This document shows positions 4,314 to 11,475 of a stretch of 14,595 bases of DNA, piece after piece (position 1 is the first letter of the stretch; each line of letters starts with the position of its first letter). Under the pieces are notes generated by a model. That model saw only the letters and a program-made list of their open reading frames with translations. It was not told the DNA's origin and ran no database searches. The translations under genes and the position numbers were made by a program. The DNA comes from Acidimicrobiales bacterium (GTDB lineage: Bacteria > Actinomycetota > Acidimicrobiia > Acidimicrobiales > UBA8190): assembly GCA_030042575.1 (NCBI GenBank), contig JASHZK010000199.1:1-14595 (forward strand). The letters run 5' to 3'.

Positions 4314-6059
4314 CTAGTCGAGAGCACCTCCGCCCTTTGCCGACCGCTCCGCCCCGGCGCCCGCCGCCGACCCGAGCAGGTCGGCCCGCCGACGGGCTTC
4401 GAGCTCGCCCCGCAGGGCCCGGCGGCCGGCGTCGGTGAGCGGGCGGTAGCGCAGCTGGCGGCCGGGGGAGTGCCACACCGGTTCCCCGCAGTCCCAGGCC
4501 TCGGCTCGCAGCACGGACTTGCGCACCTTGCCGGTGGCGGTGAGCGGCATCGCCCCGGTGATGCGGACCAGGCGCGGCGCCCACTTGGCACCGAGGTCGG
4601 GCTGTCGCCGGAGCCACCGGGCGAAGTCGTCGGGGTCGAAGCGCCCTCCGGGCCGCAGCTCCAAGGCGGCCATGACCCGGTCGCCGGAGACCGGGTCGGG
4701 CACCGGGTAGACGGCGGCGGCCGCCACTTCCGGATGGCGCTCGAGGACGCGTTCGATGGGCGCCGCCGCCAGGTTCTCCGAATCGACCCGCAGGCGGTCG
4801 CCGGCCCGGCCGGCGAAGTAGAAGAACCCCGCCTCGTCTCGGTAGCCGAGGTCGCCGCTCCAGTACCAGCCCTGCCTGGTGCGCTCCTCGTCGGCCTCGG
4901 CGTCCTCGAAGTAGCCCTCGAAGCCCCCCACCCCCGAGCGGTTCACGATCTCGCCGATGGCCTCGTCGCCGTTGAGCAGGCGGCCGGAGGAGTCGAGCCG
5001 GGCCCGGGGCCGCTCCGTGCCGTCGGGCCCGCACACGGCCACGTCCTGGGCCGAGGCGGCGCGCCCGAGCGCCCCGGGGGGGGTGTCGGCGGTGACGTTG
5101 ATGGCGGTCCCACCCTCGCTCGATCCGTAGCCCTCGACCAGGCGGAACCCGAAGCGGTGCTCGAAGGTCAGGCGATCCGGCGCCGAGGCTTCGGTGCCGA
5201 ACCCGACGCGCAGGCTGTTGTCGGCGTCGTCGGGCTCCTCGGGCGTGGCCAGGACGTAGGCCAGGGCCTTGCCCACGTAGGTGAAGCGGGTGGCCTCGTG
5301 ACGGCGGATGTCGGGCAGAAAGCGCGAGGCGCTGAAACGCCGAGCCAGAACCACGCTGGCGCCGGCGGCCAGGGCCGGGGCCCACAGGGCCATCACGGCG
5401 TTGCCGTGGAACAGGGGCATGGGGCAGTAGCAGACGTCGTCGCCGCGAAAGTCGTAGAGCTGGGCCGCCCGGGTGGCGATGGCGGCCAGGCGGCCCTGGG
5501 TGCACCGCACGGCCTTGGGCCTCCCGGTGGTACCCGAGGTGAACAGCAGCAGCAGCAGGTCATCGGGACGAGGCTCCCCGCTGCCGCCGGCGCCGCGGTT
5601 GGCGGCACTCGAGACACAGGACGCGTCGTCGACCACCAGCACGCGTTCTCGGGCCACGCCGGTGTCGAGGGCGCCGACACGGAGGGCACCAGCCTCGTCG
5701 GCCACCAGAGCCCGGCACCGGGTGAAGCGGATGTCGCGGGCCAGCTCCTCGTCGGGGTGGGTGGGGTTGATCCCCACCACCGTGGCCCGGCCCAGGGCGG
5801 CGCCACCCATCCAGAACAGGTACTCGGGGACGTTGTCGAGGAGGACCCCCACATGGCGCCGCGCACCGTGGTCCGTGGCCGAGGGGATCGGCCCCGGTGG
5901 GCCGAGCAGCTCCTCGGCCAGCTGCGCCCGGCGGGCGCTCTCCTCGACGACCTGGGCCCAGCTCCAGGTCCTGTCCTCGAAGTGCAGAGCGACGGCCTGG
6001 TCGTCTCGGCGGGCCAGGAGCAGATCGGCCACGGTGCGGGCGGGGGCGGGTGCCGTCAT
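4314..6059 (-). CDS. FadD-type acyl-CoA synthetase (AMP-forming)
   Basis: 581 residues of the adenylate-forming superfamily. In order: P-loop LLFTSGTTGRPKAV (171-184), substrate/adenine motif EGYGSSEGG (309-317), the YWSGDLGYRDEAGFFYFAGRAGD region with the ribose-binding Asp at 403 and hinge region near 418-422, SENLAAAPIE (428-436), and the C-terminal PLTATGKVRK with the catalytic Lys at 511. The enzyme activates a carboxylic acid to an acyl-adenylate and then to acyl-CoA. The ENLAAAPIE wording recalls mycobacterial FadD17/FadD1-like ligases (from memory), so a fatty or steroid-type acid is plausible but not shown. The ATG at 6059 fits the usual N-terminus; the open frame continues much further upstream but into non-homologous sequence under the CAP gene. 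A C8 run lies in the coding strand at 5083-5076 with the frame intact. Confidence 0.9.
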   Translation of the reverse strand: MTAPAPARTVADLLLARRDDQAVALHFEDRTWSWAQVVEESARRAQLAEELLGPPGPIPSATDHGARRHVGVLLDNVPEYLFWMGGAALGRATVVGINPTHPDEELARDIRFTRCRALVADEAGALRVGALDTGVARERVLVVDDASCVSSAANRGAGGSGEPRPDDLLLLLFTSGTTGRPKAVRCTQGRLAAIATRAAQLYDFRGDDVCYCPMPLFHGNAVMALWAPALAAGASVVLARRFSASRFLPDIRRHEATRFTYVGKALAYVLATPEEPDDADNSLRVGFGTEASAPDRLTFEHRFGFRLVEGYGSSEGGTAINVTADTPPGALGRAASAQDVAVCGPDGTERPRARLDSSGRLLNGDEAIGEIVNRSGVGGFEGYFEDAEADEERTRQGWYWSGDLGYRDEAGFFYFAGRAGDRLRVDSENLAAAPIERVLERHPEVAAAAVYPVPDPVSGDRVMAALELRPGGRFDPDDFARWLRRQPDLGAKWAPRLVRITGAMPLTATGKVRKSVLRAEAWDCGEPVWHSPGRQLRYRPLTDAGRRALRGELEARRRADLLGSAAGAGAERSAKGGGALD

Positions 6060-6069
6060 GCGCTCGCCG

Positions 6070-6099
6070 AGGATAGGTCGCCCCACCGGGAACCCGGTG
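6070..6099 (-). promoter_or_regulatory. candidate promoter/operator of the acyl-CoA synthetase gene
   Basis: On the coding strand, TATCCT (6075-6070) is a good -10 box ending 10 nt before the ATG at 6059, which would give a very short leader. Just upstream, CACCGGG and CCCGGTG (6084-6090 and 6093-6099) form a 7-bp inverted repeat with a 2-bp spacer, lying where the -35 contact would be. This layout suits a repressor operator, for example of TetR type. It could instead be a hairpin ending the upstream CAP-protein transcript, whose stop is 20 bp away. Confidence 0.35.
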
Positions 6100-7209: not shown

Positions 7210-7236
7210 CGAGTTCTGTTGTCTGCGGCAACCGAC

Positions 7237-7243
7237 AAGGAGA
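7237..7243 (+). promoter_or_regulatory. ribosome binding site (AAGGAGA) fixing the peroxidase start
   Basis: AAGGAGA followed by 5 nt and GTG at 7249 is a near-ideal Shine-Dalgarno arrangement. It selects the GTG over an in-frame TTG at 7219 that lies upstream of the site. Confidence 0.65.
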
Positions 7244-7248
7244 CGCGC

Positions 7249-7746
7249 GTGCCCGCCATCTACGACATCCCCATCCGGACCCTGCAGGGAGCGCCCTCCT
7301 CGCTGGCCGGCCACAGAGACAAGACCCTCCTGCTGGTCAACGTGGCGTCGCGCTGCGGGCTCACGCCCCAGTACGCCGGCCTCCAGCGGCTCCAGGACAC
7401 CTACGGGGAGCGGGGCTTCTCGGTGCTGGGCTTTCCGTGCAACCAATTTCTCGAGCAGGAGCCCGGCACGGCCGAGGAGATCGGCGAGTTCTGTTCGGTC
7501 AATTACGGCGTCACCTTCCCGCTCTTCGAGAAGATCGAGGTGAACGGTCCCGGCCGCCACCCGTTGTACCAGCAGCTCGTCTCCGCACCCGACACCGAGG
7601 GCCAGGCCGGAGACATCCAATGGAACTTCGAGAAATTCCTCGTCTCTCCCCGGGGCGAGGTGGTGGCGCGTTTCCGCCCGGGGGTGGAGCCCGAGGACCC
7701 CGCCCTCGTCTCGGTCCTGGAGTCGGCCCTGCCCGAGGTGGTCTGA
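7249..7746 (+). CDS. Glutathione peroxidase family thiol peroxidase (BtuE-like)
   Basis: 165 residues from the GTG with a strong ribosome site. Motifs in order: NVASRCGLTPQY with the peroxidatic Cys36, GFPCNQFLEQEPG with Gln66 of the catalytic tetrad, FCSVNYGVTFPLFEKIEVNG with Cys82 at the resolving-Cys position, and WNFEKFLV with Trp125 and Asn126. The active site uses Cys, not selenocysteine, and Cys82 implies a thioredoxin-type recycling route, sensible because most actinobacteria lack glutathione. The sequence is close in layout to E. coli BtuE but lacks its insertion before WNFEKFLV. It reduces hydrogen peroxide or lipid peroxides in the cytoplasm. It is the first of five genes in one direction that end with an iron permease; the next gene starts 39 bp on. 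Confidence 0.95.
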   Translation: MPAIYDIPIRTLQGAPSSLAGHRDKTLLLVNVASRCGLTPQYAGLQRLQDTYGERGFSVLGFPCNQFLEQEPGTAEEIGEFCSVNYGVTFPLFEKIEVNGPGRHPLYQQLVSAPDTEGQAGDIQWNFEKFLVSPRGEVVARFRPGVEPEDPALVSVLESALPEVV

Positions 7747-7785
7747 CACCGCGTCCGAGACGACGGCAAGGGGGATCGCCAAGAC

Positions 7786-8211
7786 GTGGACAGCCGCGTT
7801 CTTCGACTCGACACGAGCGGGCGCCAGGTGCTCGATCTCTCCGAGGAGCTCGAGGAGTTCTGCGCCGGCCGGGGCGACGGCCTGTGCTCGGTGTTCGCCC
7901 CCCACGCCACCGCCGGCGTGGCGCTCATGGAAACCGGTTCGGGGTCGGAAGCCGACCTGATCGAGGCGCTGGGGCGTCTCCTGCCTCGAGACGCTCCCTA
8001 CCGACACCGACACGGCGCCCGCGGCCACGGTGCCGACCATCTCCTTCCGGTCCTGGTGTCGCCGTCGCTGGTGGTTCCCGTTGTCGGCGGGCGCCCTGCC
8101 CTCGGCCCCTGGCAGCGACTGGTGCTGGTGGACTTGAACGCCGACAATCCCCGGCGCCACGTGCGCCTGAGCTTCCTCCCCTCGCCAACTCCTAGGATGG
8201 CTCGCTCATGA
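7786..8211 (+). CDS. YjbQ/UPF0047 family protein
   Basis: 141 residues. The signature of the UPF0047 fold is clear: SVFAPHATAGVALMETG, then YRHRHGARGHGADHLLPVLVSPSLVVPV, then LGPWQRLVLVDL. Conserved His residues cluster in these segments and probably hold a metal. Family members show thiamine-phosphate synthase activity in some assays, but the physiological role is unsettled. GTG at 7786 has AAGGGGGAT at 7768-7775 upstream. The stop overlaps the ATG of the DUF169 gene (ATGA, 8208-8211), so the two are translationally coupled. The C-terminal PTPRMARS tail is slightly longer than usual, probably a by-product of the overlap. Confidence 0.9.
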   Translation: MDSRVLRLDTSGRQVLDLSEELEEFCAGRGDGLCSVFAPHATAGVALMETGSGSEADLIEALGRLLPRDAPYRHRHGARGHGADHLLPVLVSPSLVVPVVGGRPALGPWQRLVLVDLNADNPRRHVRLSFLPSPTPRMARS

Positions 8212-8942
8212 CCGACCCCGCTGATCCTGCGCTGCGCCGGCGACTGGCCGAGGCGCTGACCAAGGCGCTGCATCTGGCCGTGGCGCCCATCGCCATCTCC
8301 TTCGAGGCGGAGCCGCCGCCGGCGCTGCCCGCCTTCGACGAGCCCATGTCCGACCCTGCTCCCGACGGGCGCCGGGGCCGGGTCCCGGCCGGCTGTGTCT
8401 TCTGGGTGCGGGCGGCGGAGCACACTTTCGCCACCGCGCCCGAGGACCACGGCAACTGCTCGGTGGGGCGCTACACCCACGGGCTCGCCTCCATGGAGGA
8501 GATCGCGGGCAACGACGACGTGGCCGCCCTGCTGGAGTCGGGCTGGGTGGACGCCGAGGCGGTTTCCGCCATCCCCTCGGTGTCGAAGAGTCCCGGCTCG
8601 ATCGTCTACGGCCCGTTGGCCGAGGCGCCCCGACAGCCCGACGTGGTGCTCCTGCGGGTGAACGGGCGCCAGCTCATGGTGCTCTCCGACGCCCTGCCGG
8701 CGCTGCGCATCGAGGGCAAGCCCCAGTGTCACATCGTGGCGCTGGCCCAGGAGCACGGTGAGGCCGCCGCCAGCGTGGGCTGCGCCCTGAGCCGGGCTCG
8801 TACCGGCATGCGGCCCGACGAGATGACCTTCGCCTTCCCCGGCAGCCGGCTGGCCGAGGTGGTGGACGCCGTCGAACGGACCTCTGCCGTCGACAGCGTG
8901 GTGGCCAAGTACGCGGCGGAGGATGCCCGGCGCTTCCCATGA
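8208..8942 (+). CDS. DUF169 family protein
   Basis: 244 residues. Family features seen: APIAISF near the N-terminus, PAGCVFWVRAAEHTFAT (Cys63), DHGNCSVGRYTHGLA (Cys84), KSPGSIVYGPL in the middle, and KPQCHIVALAQEHGEAAASVGCALSRARTGM (Cys174, Cys192). The four Cys lie in conserved DUF169 positions and could bind a metal or cluster, but the family's function is not known. No signal peptide or membrane segment is present, so it is cytoplasmic. The start overlaps the yjbQ-like stop by 4 bp. The next gene, a cupredoxin lipoprotein, begins about 28 bp downstream (or overlaps, if its ATG at 8923 is used), which places this Cys-rich protein inside the iron-uptake transcript. Confidence 0.88.
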   Translation: MTDPADPALRRRLAEALTKALHLAVAPIAISFEAEPPPALPAFDEPMSDPAPDGRRGRVPAGCVFWVRAAEHTFATAPEDHGNCSVGRYTHGLASMEEIAGNDDVAALLESGWVDAEAVSAIPSVSKSPGSIVYGPLAEAPRQPDVVLLRVNGRQLMVLSDALPALRIEGKPQCHIVALAQEHGEAAASVGCALSRARTGMRPDEMTFAFPGSRLAEVVDAVERTSAVDSVVAKYAAEDARRFP

Positions 8943-8970
8943 CGTCGAGGGCGACGTCGTTCTCCTCCTG

Positions 8971-9369
8971 GTGAGGCCGGCGGTCCCTGTCGGGCGGGGT
9001 GCCCTGGCCGTTGTCGTCGTGTCGTCGGGGCTGTGGCTGGCGGCGTGTGGTTACGCGGTGAGACCCAACAGCGAGGGCCTCGCTGCCGACGTGCGGGTCG
9101 TCCGAGTGACCGTCACCCCTTCGGGCTGTCACCCGGTACCCGGTTCCGTACCGGCCGGTGAAGTCCAGATCGTCGTCACGAACCTCAATGCGCCGACCGT
9201 GTCGGAAGTCGAGATTCGGACCGGCAATTTCTCCCAGGTCCTCGGCGAGCGTGAGAACCTGGTCGAGGGCCTGTCCCAGACTTTCGAACTCCATCTCGAG
9301 CGAGGGCGGTACATCGTGAACTGCCCTGGTGCCGTTCAGCAACAATGGCCCTTGGCGGTGTCCACCTAG
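8971..9369 (+). CDS. EfeO-type cupredoxin-domain lipoprotein (no M75 domain)
   Basis: 132 residues from GTG 8971. Residues 1-25 are a lipoprotein signal (two Arg, then a hydrophobic run) ending in the lipobox LAAC with Cys26. The mature part is one cupredoxin-like domain matching the N-terminal domain of EfeO: VTVTPSGCHPVPG (Cys53), PAGEVQIVVTN, SEVEI (Glu79, Glu81), GERENLVEGLSQ (Glu93, Glu95), and RGRYIVNCPG (Cys118). EfeO uses the equivalent Cys and acidic residues to bind copper and iron. The imelysin-like M75 domain that normally follows is absent. The protein would sit on the outer face of the membrane and pass iron to the permease whose GTG lies 9 bp downstream. The start is uncertain: ATG 8923 has GGAGG directly adjacent and would lengthen the signal. 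Confidence 0.85.
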   Translation: MRPAVPVGRGALAVVVVSSGLWLAACGYAVRPNSEGLAADVRVVRVTVTPSGCHPVPGSVPAGEVQIVVTNLNAPTVSEVEIRTGNFSQVLGERENLVEGLSQTFELHLERGRYIVNCPGAVQQQWPLAVST

Positions 9370-9378
9370 GATTGCACC

Positions 9379-11475
9379 GTGCTGCCGGCCTTCGTCATCG
9401 GCTTGCGAGAAGGCCTGGAAACCGTCGTCGTGCTCGGGGCCATCGTCGTGTTCCTGCGGGCGCAGGGTCGAAGCGACCTTCTTCCACGGGTCTGGCGGGC
9501 CGGCGCCCTGGCTGCGGTGCTGTGCATGGCCATCGGCGTGGTGATCCGCTACGTCGAGGTCAACCTTCCGTGGCGTCAGCAAGAGCAACTCGAGACCGTC
9601 GTGGGCTTGGTCGCCGTCGCCACCGTGACCTACATGGTCGTGTGGATGCGCCGTTTCCCCAAGGATCTTCGCCGTGACACCGACACTGCCGCCTCGGCCG
9701 CTCTCGCCCGTAAGGCCGGTAGCGGACTCGTCCTCCTCGCCTTCTTCGCCGTCCTGCGCGAGGGGTTCGAGGTCACCGTGTTCCTGGTGGCCACCATCGG
9801 CCTGACCGGACGCAACGCCTGGTTGTCGACGGGAGGGGCCCTCCTGGGCGTCCTCGCCGCCTTCGCCATCGGGACCGGCGTGGTGAAGGGGACCAGACAT
9901 CTCGATGTGGCTCGCTTCTTCCGGGTCACCGCCGTGGTCCTCGTCCTCTCGGCAGCAGGCATCGCCATGACCAGCATGCAGACAGCCAACGCCGCCGGCT
10001 GGATCACCGTCGGACAGCGGCCGCAGTTCGATCTTTCCTGGCTGGCTCCGCCCGGCTCGCTGCTGTCCTCGTTCACCACCGGCATGTTCGGGCTTCAGCC
10101 CTATCCCACGCTGGTGGAGGTGGTGGCCTGGCTCGCCTATCTGCTGCCCATGATGGCGGTCGTCCTGTGGCCGGTGGGGAAGGCCCCGTTCGGGCCGAGA
10201 AGAGCGGCGTCACCACGGCCGAGACCCAAGAGGTTCCTGGCCGTGGGTGCTGCCGTCTTCGCTGGCGCCCTGGGGGTGACCGTCGCCCTGGCCGTGGCCC
10301 TGCCGTCGTCCTCCTCCACCACCAAGACGACCAGCGCCTCGGCCAAGATCCTCTTCGCCGGTCTCGAGGCCGTCACCTGTAGCGGCGCCTCCCACTGCAC
10401 GGCCGTCGGAGACTTCTTGCCCGTCGACAAGGACGCGGCCATCGGTGACCCCGATGGCGACGGCAAGGCCACCCACACCCTGGTCGAATTCTCCGACGGG
10501 GCCCGATGGGTGCACGTTCCCAGCCCCGATGTGGGGCGTGGCGGCTCCCAGCTCTCGAGCGTGTCCTGTCCCAGCGTGGACAGCTGCACCGCCGTGGGCT
10601 TCTACCGGCCCGACCCGTTCCCCGGCTACGCCGCCACCGCCCCCCCCAGCGACCCCTTGATCGAGTCCGAGACCGACGGGCGTTGGCACATCGTCGACAG
10701 CCCGGTGCCGGCCCCCGACAGCGTGCTGGCAGGCGTCTCGTGTCCGACCACTTCCGACTGCACGGCCGTGGGCTACGCCATCTCGGGCCAGAGCGGGGCC
10801 ACACCGCTGGAGTCGCTCTTCATCGAGAGCTTCGACGGTCGGGCATGGACACTCGAAGAGGTCTCCCCACCGCCAGGGTCGGTCTCCGAGCTCGACTCCG
10901 TGTCGTGTGCCAGCACGTCTGCTTGTGTGGCCGTGGGCGACAGCGCCCCGCAGTCCGATCCCACCGCCACCCGTCCGCTGGTCGAGACGATGCAGCACGG
11001 GACCTGGAGGCAAGGCACCTTCGGCTCCTCGGGATCGGGCCAGGGCATCCTCTACGACGTCGCCTGCCCGGCGGTGGGACAATGCCTGGCCGCTGGGAAC
11101 TCGGTCACGGGCGCCACCGGATCGGCGCTGGTGCTGTCGCTGAGCGGAACGAGCTGGACCGTCGACCGGGCGGCGTCGAGCCAGGCGCACGATCCGTCCC
11201 TCACGGCACTGGGTTGTGCCGGTGTCGAGCACTGTGTGGTGGCGGGAACGGCGCTCGAGTCGGCGGCAAAGGTGTTGGCCGAGGTCGACGACACCGGCTG
11301 GCAGTCGCTCTCCCCGCCCGCCTTCTCCGACAACGTCGACAGCATCGCCTGCCCCACGCAGCGCAGCTGTGTCGTGGTGGGAAGCCGATATGTGAACAGC
11401 CTGGGCAACACCCGGGCCCTGACCGCCCTGCTGTCGGCGGGCACCTGGACCACCGAACCGAACCCCGGTCCTTGA
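9379..11475 (+). CDS. FTR1/EfeU iron permease fused to an extracellular seven-repeat beta-propeller-like domain
   Basis: 698 residues in one unbroken frame. Residues 1-266 are an FTR1/EfeU permease with seven helices and both iron-binding motifs, REGLE (10-14) and REGFE (127-131). A basic loop (RRAASPRPRPKR) and an eighth helix (286-309) follow, then a Ser/Thr linker. Residues 323-698 hold seven repeats, each with a C-x5-C pair (Cys 334/340, 397/403, 455/461, 510/516, 563/569, 613/619, 658/664), usually followed by an A-V-G-like turn, and each closed by a Trp (377, 436, 490, 543, 593, 641, 690). Seven repeats of 45-63 residues suggest a seven-bladed propeller with disulfides. Positive-inside loops put the N-terminus and the propeller outside. 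The first repeat carries DPDGDG, a DxDxDG cation loop. The GTG has TAGGA at 9367-9371 upstream. EfeU proteins normally end after helix seven; the propeller's role is unknown. Confidence 0.9.
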   Translation: MLPAFVIGLREGLETVVVLGAIVVFLRAQGRSDLLPRVWRAGALAAVLCMAIGVVIRYVEVNLPWRQQEQLETVVGLVAVATVTYMVVWMRRFPKDLRRDTDTAASAALARKAGSGLVLLAFFAVLREGFEVTVFLVATIGLTGRNAWLSTGGALLGVLAAFAIGTGVVKGTRHLDVARFFRVTAVVLVLSAAGIAMTSMQTANAAGWITVGQRPQFDLSWLAPPGSLLSSFTTGMFGLQPYPTLVEVVAWLAYLLPMMAVVLWPVGKAPFGPRRAASPRPRPKRFLAVGAAVFAGALGVTVALAVALPSSSSTTKTTSASAKILFAGLEAVTCSGASHCTAVGDFLPVDKDAAIGDPDGDGKATHTLVEFSDGARWVHVPSPDVGRGGSQLSSVSCPSVDSCTAVGFYRPDPFPGYAATAPPSDPLIESETDGRWHIVDSPVPAPDSVLAGVSCPTTSDCTAVGYAISGQSGATPLESLFIESFDGRAWTLEEVSPPPGSVSELDSVSCASTSACVAVGDSAPQSDPTATRPLVETMQHGTWRQGTFGSSGSGQGILYDVACPAVGQCLAAGNSVTGATGSALVLSLSGTSWTVDRAASSQAHDPSLTALGCAGVEHCVVAGTALESAAKVLAEVDDTGWQSLSPPAFSDNVDSIACPTQRSCVVVGSRYVNSLGNTRALTALLSAGTWTTEPNPGP

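Follow-up and report, generated by a model that had tools for sequence, protein, structure and literature searches.

FTR1 proteins move iron through REGxE motifs, and how permeases of this type receive their iron is an unsettled question. The closest described systems are EfeUOB, with an EfeU/FTR1 permease of the OFeT family, and the FTR1-EfeO fusions, in which FTR1, cupredoxin and M75 follow one another (for example P0086). A preliminary description of the locus studied here gave EfeU/FTR1 proteins a normal length of under 300 residues, a limit that proved too narrow, since many of the FTR1 proteins listed in our searches are longer and carry other C-terminal extensions. The role of EfeO/M is called unclear in the abstract of one paper (PMC9174327).

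We analysed a stretch of 14,595 nucleotides (the window), which is one contig (C354) of the draft genome of an uncultured Acidimicrobiales bacterium (G000; 2.39 Mb in 422 contigs, 59% complete). Read from sequence, the predicted product of its gene at 9379..11475 is an EfeU permease with a built-in outer propeller, a variant of FTR1 systems that recurs in relatives and touches directly on the question of iron supply. As the preliminary description had supposed, no FTR1-propeller protein was found described in the literature searched, mostly at title or abstract level. Our main reading, with a probability of roughly one half, is that this protein is an EfeU-type iron importer with its own tethered extracellular propeller, which would act with the cupredoxin encoded next to it and bind iron or a carrier near the permease. 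The features discussed are as follows.

8208..8942, + strand: DUF169 gene (Pfam), upstream; a different gene lies upstream of the cupredoxin in locus L002
8971..9369, + strand: EfeO-type cupredoxin without M75 (PF13473, EfeO model, 7wgu), predicted lipoprotein (LAAC, by eye)
9379..11475, + strand: EfeU/FTR1-propeller fusion gene, GTG start, 698 aa, with at least 19 further fused homologs
9379..10167, + strand: FTR1 permease part, residues 1-263, with REGLE, REGFE and seven helices (FTR1 models)
10168..10233, + strand: loop, residues 264-285, predicted cytoplasmic (charge +7/-0; hydropathy)
10234..10290, + strand: eighth transmembrane helix (TM8), residues 286-304 by hydropathy, 284-307 in the full-length model
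10291..10347, + strand: outer linker, residues 305-323, predicted flexible (low pLDDT; length variable among homologs)
10348..11457, + strand: predicted seven-bladed beta-propeller, residues 324-693 (seven C-x5-C pairs; structure prediction)
10426..10464, + strand: blade-1 acidic loop DKDAAIGDPDGDG (residues 350-362), proposed as a metal site

The permease part and its topology

The frame had been read as a single polypeptide of 698 aa that joins an FTR1 permease, an eighth helix and seven C-x5-C repeats with Trp, and this holds. PF03239 (FTR1) matches residues 1-263 with E 3e-35 (122.4 bits against a Pfam cut-off of 25.3), while the scores for the NCBIfam EfeU equivalog model (232.7 bits, cut-off 255) and for TIGR00145 (143.7 against 303.8) fall below their cut-offs, so we assign the protein to the FTR1 family and call it EfeU-like rather than a curated EfeU equivalog. 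Across the 18 aligned fusions REGLE (residues 10-14) is invariant and so is REGFE (residues 127-131) except for R127, kept in at least 90%; the glutamates E11, E14, E128 and E131 are invariant, and both motifs lie inside helices of the full-length model (2-28 and 114-140). Hydropathy gives the seven FTR1 helices and one more at 286-304. The loop ahead of this last helix, residues 264-285, has seven K/R and no D/E (5 to 10 K/R in the equivalent loop of 19 fusions), so that by the positive-inside rule the C-terminal part is predicted to lie outside the cell, where the preliminary description had put the repeats.

When the whole protein was scanned, no Pfam or NCBIfam model matched residues 264-698 at E <= 1, and the C-terminal piece scanned alone hit a single NCBIfam model, evidently by chance (E 0.0069; 15.2 bits where the cut-off is 512.9). 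Searches of solved structures returned one match by sequence (E 0.46) and none by profile, with no FTR1 or Cys-propeller relative among them.

A predicted seven-bladed propeller on a tether

After residue 318 all 14 cysteines fall into seven C-x5-C pairs, from 334/340 to 658/664; in 5000 shuffles of the residues, at the same composition, the mean number of such pairs was 0.48 and the maximum 5. Thirteen of the 14 are kept in every one of the 18 fusions and C664 in 17, and a Trp stands near the blade end in 18/18 for six blades and in 16/18 for the seventh (W690). Structure prediction bore out the proposed seven-bladed propeller, giving a closed ring of four-stranded blades that the seven predicted disulfides would stabilise outside the cell. 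D350, D352, D357, D359, D361, E370, Y409, E429, E483, Y559 and D605 are invariant in 18/18 fusions.

Two of the best matches to this fold among solved structures are enzymes, CylK (PDB 7fh6) and hydrazine synthase, a likeness that would fit a propeller acting as an enzyme on iron chelates or iron redox, for example as a propeller-fold lyase or oxidoreductase. However, identity is about 10%, fold alone shows no function, and H366 is the only propeller histidine conserved at 90% or more in the 18 fusions, which makes a His-bound metal centre unlikely; we consider an enzymatic role improbable. The predicted topology, by placing the propeller on the outer face, might also allow it to stand as a rigid lid or gate over the permease mouth with its channel lining the iron path, and the preliminary description had it covering the iron entry path. 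A fixed position there is not supported: among 19 fusions the outer linker can be as short as 11 or as long as 85 residues, and the full-length model (pTM 0.60) has pLDDT below 50 at 274-284 and 304-321, flanking TM8, so the propeller looks tethered rather than fixed. Separate propellers, described below, also speak against a fixed lid, which we regard as quite improbable.

Homologs, fused and separate

Among the best 120 of 326 matches in the full-length homolog search, the same fusion occurs in 19 proteins (P0002-P0019 and P0024, the last without its N-terminus), and P0020 and P0028 are shorter pieces. For 17 of the 19 a single local alignment takes in 98-100% of the query (38% for P0016 and 54% for P0024), and the arrangement recurs on an independent MAG contig. 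The preliminary description had raised the possibility that a sequencing error joined two genes; against such an assembly or frameshift artefact stand these further fused proteins and the second contig, nothing was found in its favour, and we reject it as having next to no probability.

A propeller tree was made from 34 rows with the GDPDGDG loop, with the truncated propellers of P0020 and P0028 dropped. On it the 20 fused rows are scattered among the 14 separate ones, with 8 label changes, at least 5 of them forced by supported branches, and the labels are only mildly clustered (18 of 500 shuffles were as low). Some of the 14 separate propellers, on contigs of 1.5-3 kb, could be fragments produced by gene calling, and those with a better basis are P0027 (820 kb contig), P0030 (100 kb), P0092 (40 kb), P0129 (72 kb) and L101 (11 kb). 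Separate propellers mostly have an anchor helix or a lipobox (P0026, P0092, L101), as judged by eye. The interleaving of the two forms, through repeated fusion or fission, suggests that propeller and permease work together.

A permease tree (quick method, midpoint root) was made from 90 FTR1 parts with both FTR1 motifs by pattern, taken from 107 proteins. Cys-propeller permeases form one side of a branch with support 95, and together with the TolB-like EfeUs they make a group of 41 rows with support 100; C-terminal extensions of other kinds are shorter in 43 of the 90 rows and long in 8. The likeness to TolB draws on two results: solved TolB is matched by profile with E 6e-5, and PD40 turns up at E <= 0.1 in 13 of the 20 members. 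In the window protein Pfam PD40 gave no match at E <= 1. The TolB/WD40-like EfeU fusions, of 632-665 aa, are P0033-P0049 minus P0036, plus P0055, P0058, P0074 and P0096 (alignment A5), and their group on the tree also takes in P0054 (by pattern labelled as another long type) and P0119 (483 aa). Sister permeases thus seem to have acquired two unrelated propellers, Cys-pair and TolB-like, each behind the eighth helix.

Two unrelated propellers at the same place in sister EfeU groups would fit a scaffold better than one metal chemistry. This is the starting point of the main rival to the iron-binding reading, in which the propeller would be a receptor or anchor for a wall polymer, an iron chelate or a protein, and would place or regulate the permease without itself handling iron ions. 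Propellers are common binding scaffolds. A passage in the CylK paper says so as well (PMC8916777). With 2181 proteins at E <= 0.001 the wider C-x5-C repeat family is large, and nothing seen in it points to iron; the propeller may therefore be a module for binding in general. Against this rival stands the acidic loop of blade 1, which is tied to fused and near-relative propellers and nearly absent in the listed wider family: GDPDGDG occurs in 28 of the 29 listed C-terminal-search matches with at least 42% identity and, among the 91 remaining listed matches, in one, counts that rest on the best 120 of 2181 proteins (the exceptions are P0052, without the motif in the close group, and P0092, with it outside). 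These 120 rows were used for the count because the 34 tree rows had been picked by that very motif. The loop looks like calcium loops, and part of it has pLDDT below 50 in both the propeller-only and the full-length model, two points against the iron-binding reading; it may be a structural site for calcium or the place where binding occurs. Given the distribution of the loop and the neighbourhood of one separate propeller, considered next, we hold the receptor or anchor reading possible, if on the unlikely side.

Gene neighbourhood

The cupredoxin gene ends 9 bp before the fusion gene; its frame is open from 8923, and its GTG start at 8971 is inferred. The product matches PF13473 (31.3 bits against a cut-off of 27) and the EfeO model, and comparison with solved EfeO 7wgu, with queries that began at 8968, one codon before the inferred start, gave E 3e-7, and Cys and Glu positions line up. 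Of the 17 family genomes, only the two that carry the fusion have a close cupredoxin. Ahead of the fusion gene, and on its strand, stand genes for glutathione peroxidase, UPF0047, DUF169 and the cupredoxin, separated by short gaps (window positions 7219-9369), and in L002 the gene upstream of the cupredoxin is methyltransferase-like (by eye) and on the other strand.

The partners of EfeUOB were sought by profile. M75 (PF09375) had no match in G000 (59% complete) or in G283 (77% complete), the second genome with the fusion, and DyP peroxidase (PF04261, EfeB) had none in G000, at the same 59% completeness. Near EfeU, M75 was present at 20 of 23 other loci from named genomes (two of the three misses, L015 and L017, lie on contigs that end near FTR1, the third, L025, does not), at 4 of 30 short-flank EfeU loci of the order, and at none of the fusion loci (L002, L086 and L100). 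It was found in 0/5 genomes searched, among them G081 and G349, the latter with a plain FTR1. Because M75 is absent with or without the fusion, the propeller may have taken its place, but the pattern is not specific to the fusion.

Genes for ferric transport accompany the propeller in other genomes. At L100 of G283, taken as the same contig as L002, one strand encodes the cupredoxin, the fusion, a small lipoprotein, a HitA-type binding protein (E 7.5e-73 against HitA) and an ABC permease; the NCBIfam models closest to the binding protein are phosphonate models, all far below cut-off, so its iron role is inferred from solved relatives. In G081 (95% complete), which has no FTR1 match, a lipoprotein propeller encoded on its own, 39% identical and with the loop kept, is convergent to genes for a HitA-type binding protein (E 9.5e-70) and a permease, and this placement of a separate propeller beside a ferric transporter argues against a receptor or anchor that does not itself handle iron ions. 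The window has no ferric transporter gene adjoining the fusion; on contig C344 of the same genome (L109:1114-4206) are a small lipoprotein (likeness by eye), a HitA-like ferric-binding protein (72%) and an ABC permease. The preliminary description had offered capture, oxidation or gating of iron, or sensing of the wall, as possible roles; gene linkage speaks more for iron handling or for docking.

Iron boxes were scored with the IdeR/DtxR consensus over 19 positions. The best candidate in the window, at 11/19, was rejected as no better than chance (the best of 30 shuffles averages 12.1); the best in L101, 12/19, was likewise no better than chance, and the best in L100, 14/19, was also reached by shuffles. 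In L102 an 18/19 match (6059-6077) directly precedes the plain 284-aa FTR1 gene of G349, a member of the same genus, with a DtxR-like gene (by eye) on its other side. Where the small lipoprotein gene that follows the fusion starts (L100:9139-9158) there is a perfect inverted repeat, AAGTTAGG-4 nt-CCTAACTT, which is perhaps a regulator site.

Distribution among genomes

In the 397 genomes of the order, FTR1 matches occur in 121 and matches to the C-terminal part (E <= 1e-10) in 58, and comparison of the two lists gave the fusion in two, G000 and G283. These two also carry it among the 17 genomes of the family, where the remaining FTR1 matches are 30-33% identical. Propeller matches at E <= 1e-30 were found in 2 of 395 class-sample genomes (G000 and G081) and in 1 of 396 phylum-sample genomes (G000); in all three C-terminal surveys (order, class and phylum) at most four first-pass candidates per genome were scored, so matches may be missed. 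G283 and the MAG contig JASHUM010000020.1 (Acidimicrobiales bacterium JOPF179) hold the same protein and are counted once, and both fusion loci that can be read with their surroundings belong to one genus. Six other FTR1 frames of the order with at least 600 codons (G152, G115, G109, G061, G004 and G172) showed no Cys-propeller, TolB-like domain or M75 (tblastn E 0.01) and no GDPDGDG, in stretches that ended inside the frame for G172 (810 codons), G152 (515) and G115 (509).

Proposed role of the propeller

In the iron importer that we propose, the permease would move iron through its REGxE motifs, and the cupredoxin and the tethered propeller might jointly do the extracellular work done by EfeO elsewhere. 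The propeller would bind iron or an iron-carrying partner near the membrane, and in this way could raise the local supply to the permease. A more far-reaching version, which we find doubtful, is that an EfeU clade adopted two unrelated propellers in place of the imelysin of EfeO, that the blade-1 loop of the Cys type binds iron, and that the free lipoprotein propeller serves ferric ABC transporters; if so, the Cys-pair propeller would be a new class of extracellular iron-handling protein. The natural fused and separate versions of the accessory would allow direct tests of the role of the outer part, and the main reading would give a large unnamed family of propeller repeats its first functional link.

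Comparison with known systems

With EfeU/FTR1 and EfeUOB the locus shares the FTR1 domain, the REGxE motifs, seven helices and an adjoining EfeO-type cupredoxin; unlike them, the fusion has an eighth helix and an outer propeller, and its cupredoxin stands alone without M75. The FTR1-EfeO fusions likewise place a permease and an extracytoplasmic iron-handling part on one chain, but their outer part is cupredoxin and imelysin and here it is a propeller. The C-terminal propeller of CylK differs in its 10% identity, in the N-terminal domain to which it is joined (calcium-binding in CylK enzymes, FTR1 in the fusion) and in belonging to an alkylating enzyme, and CylK gave no sequence match at E <= 1 in the solved-structure searches. 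The unnamed C-x5-C/AVG/W proteins (P0121-P0210) have the same repeat, but mostly 11-14 copies of it in the listed members, no FTR1 domain listed, and GDPDGDG in one of the 91 listed, unlike the fusions; Pfam searches with P0121, P0124, P0126, P0138 and P0129 gave short DUF2510, DUF6087 or Rax2 matches, or none. Although their domain belongs to an unrelated family and lacks the seven C-x5-C repeats in alignment A5, the TolB/WD40-like EfeUs (P0033-P0049 and others) are sister permeases that share with the fusion an eighth helix, a linker and an outer propeller-like domain.
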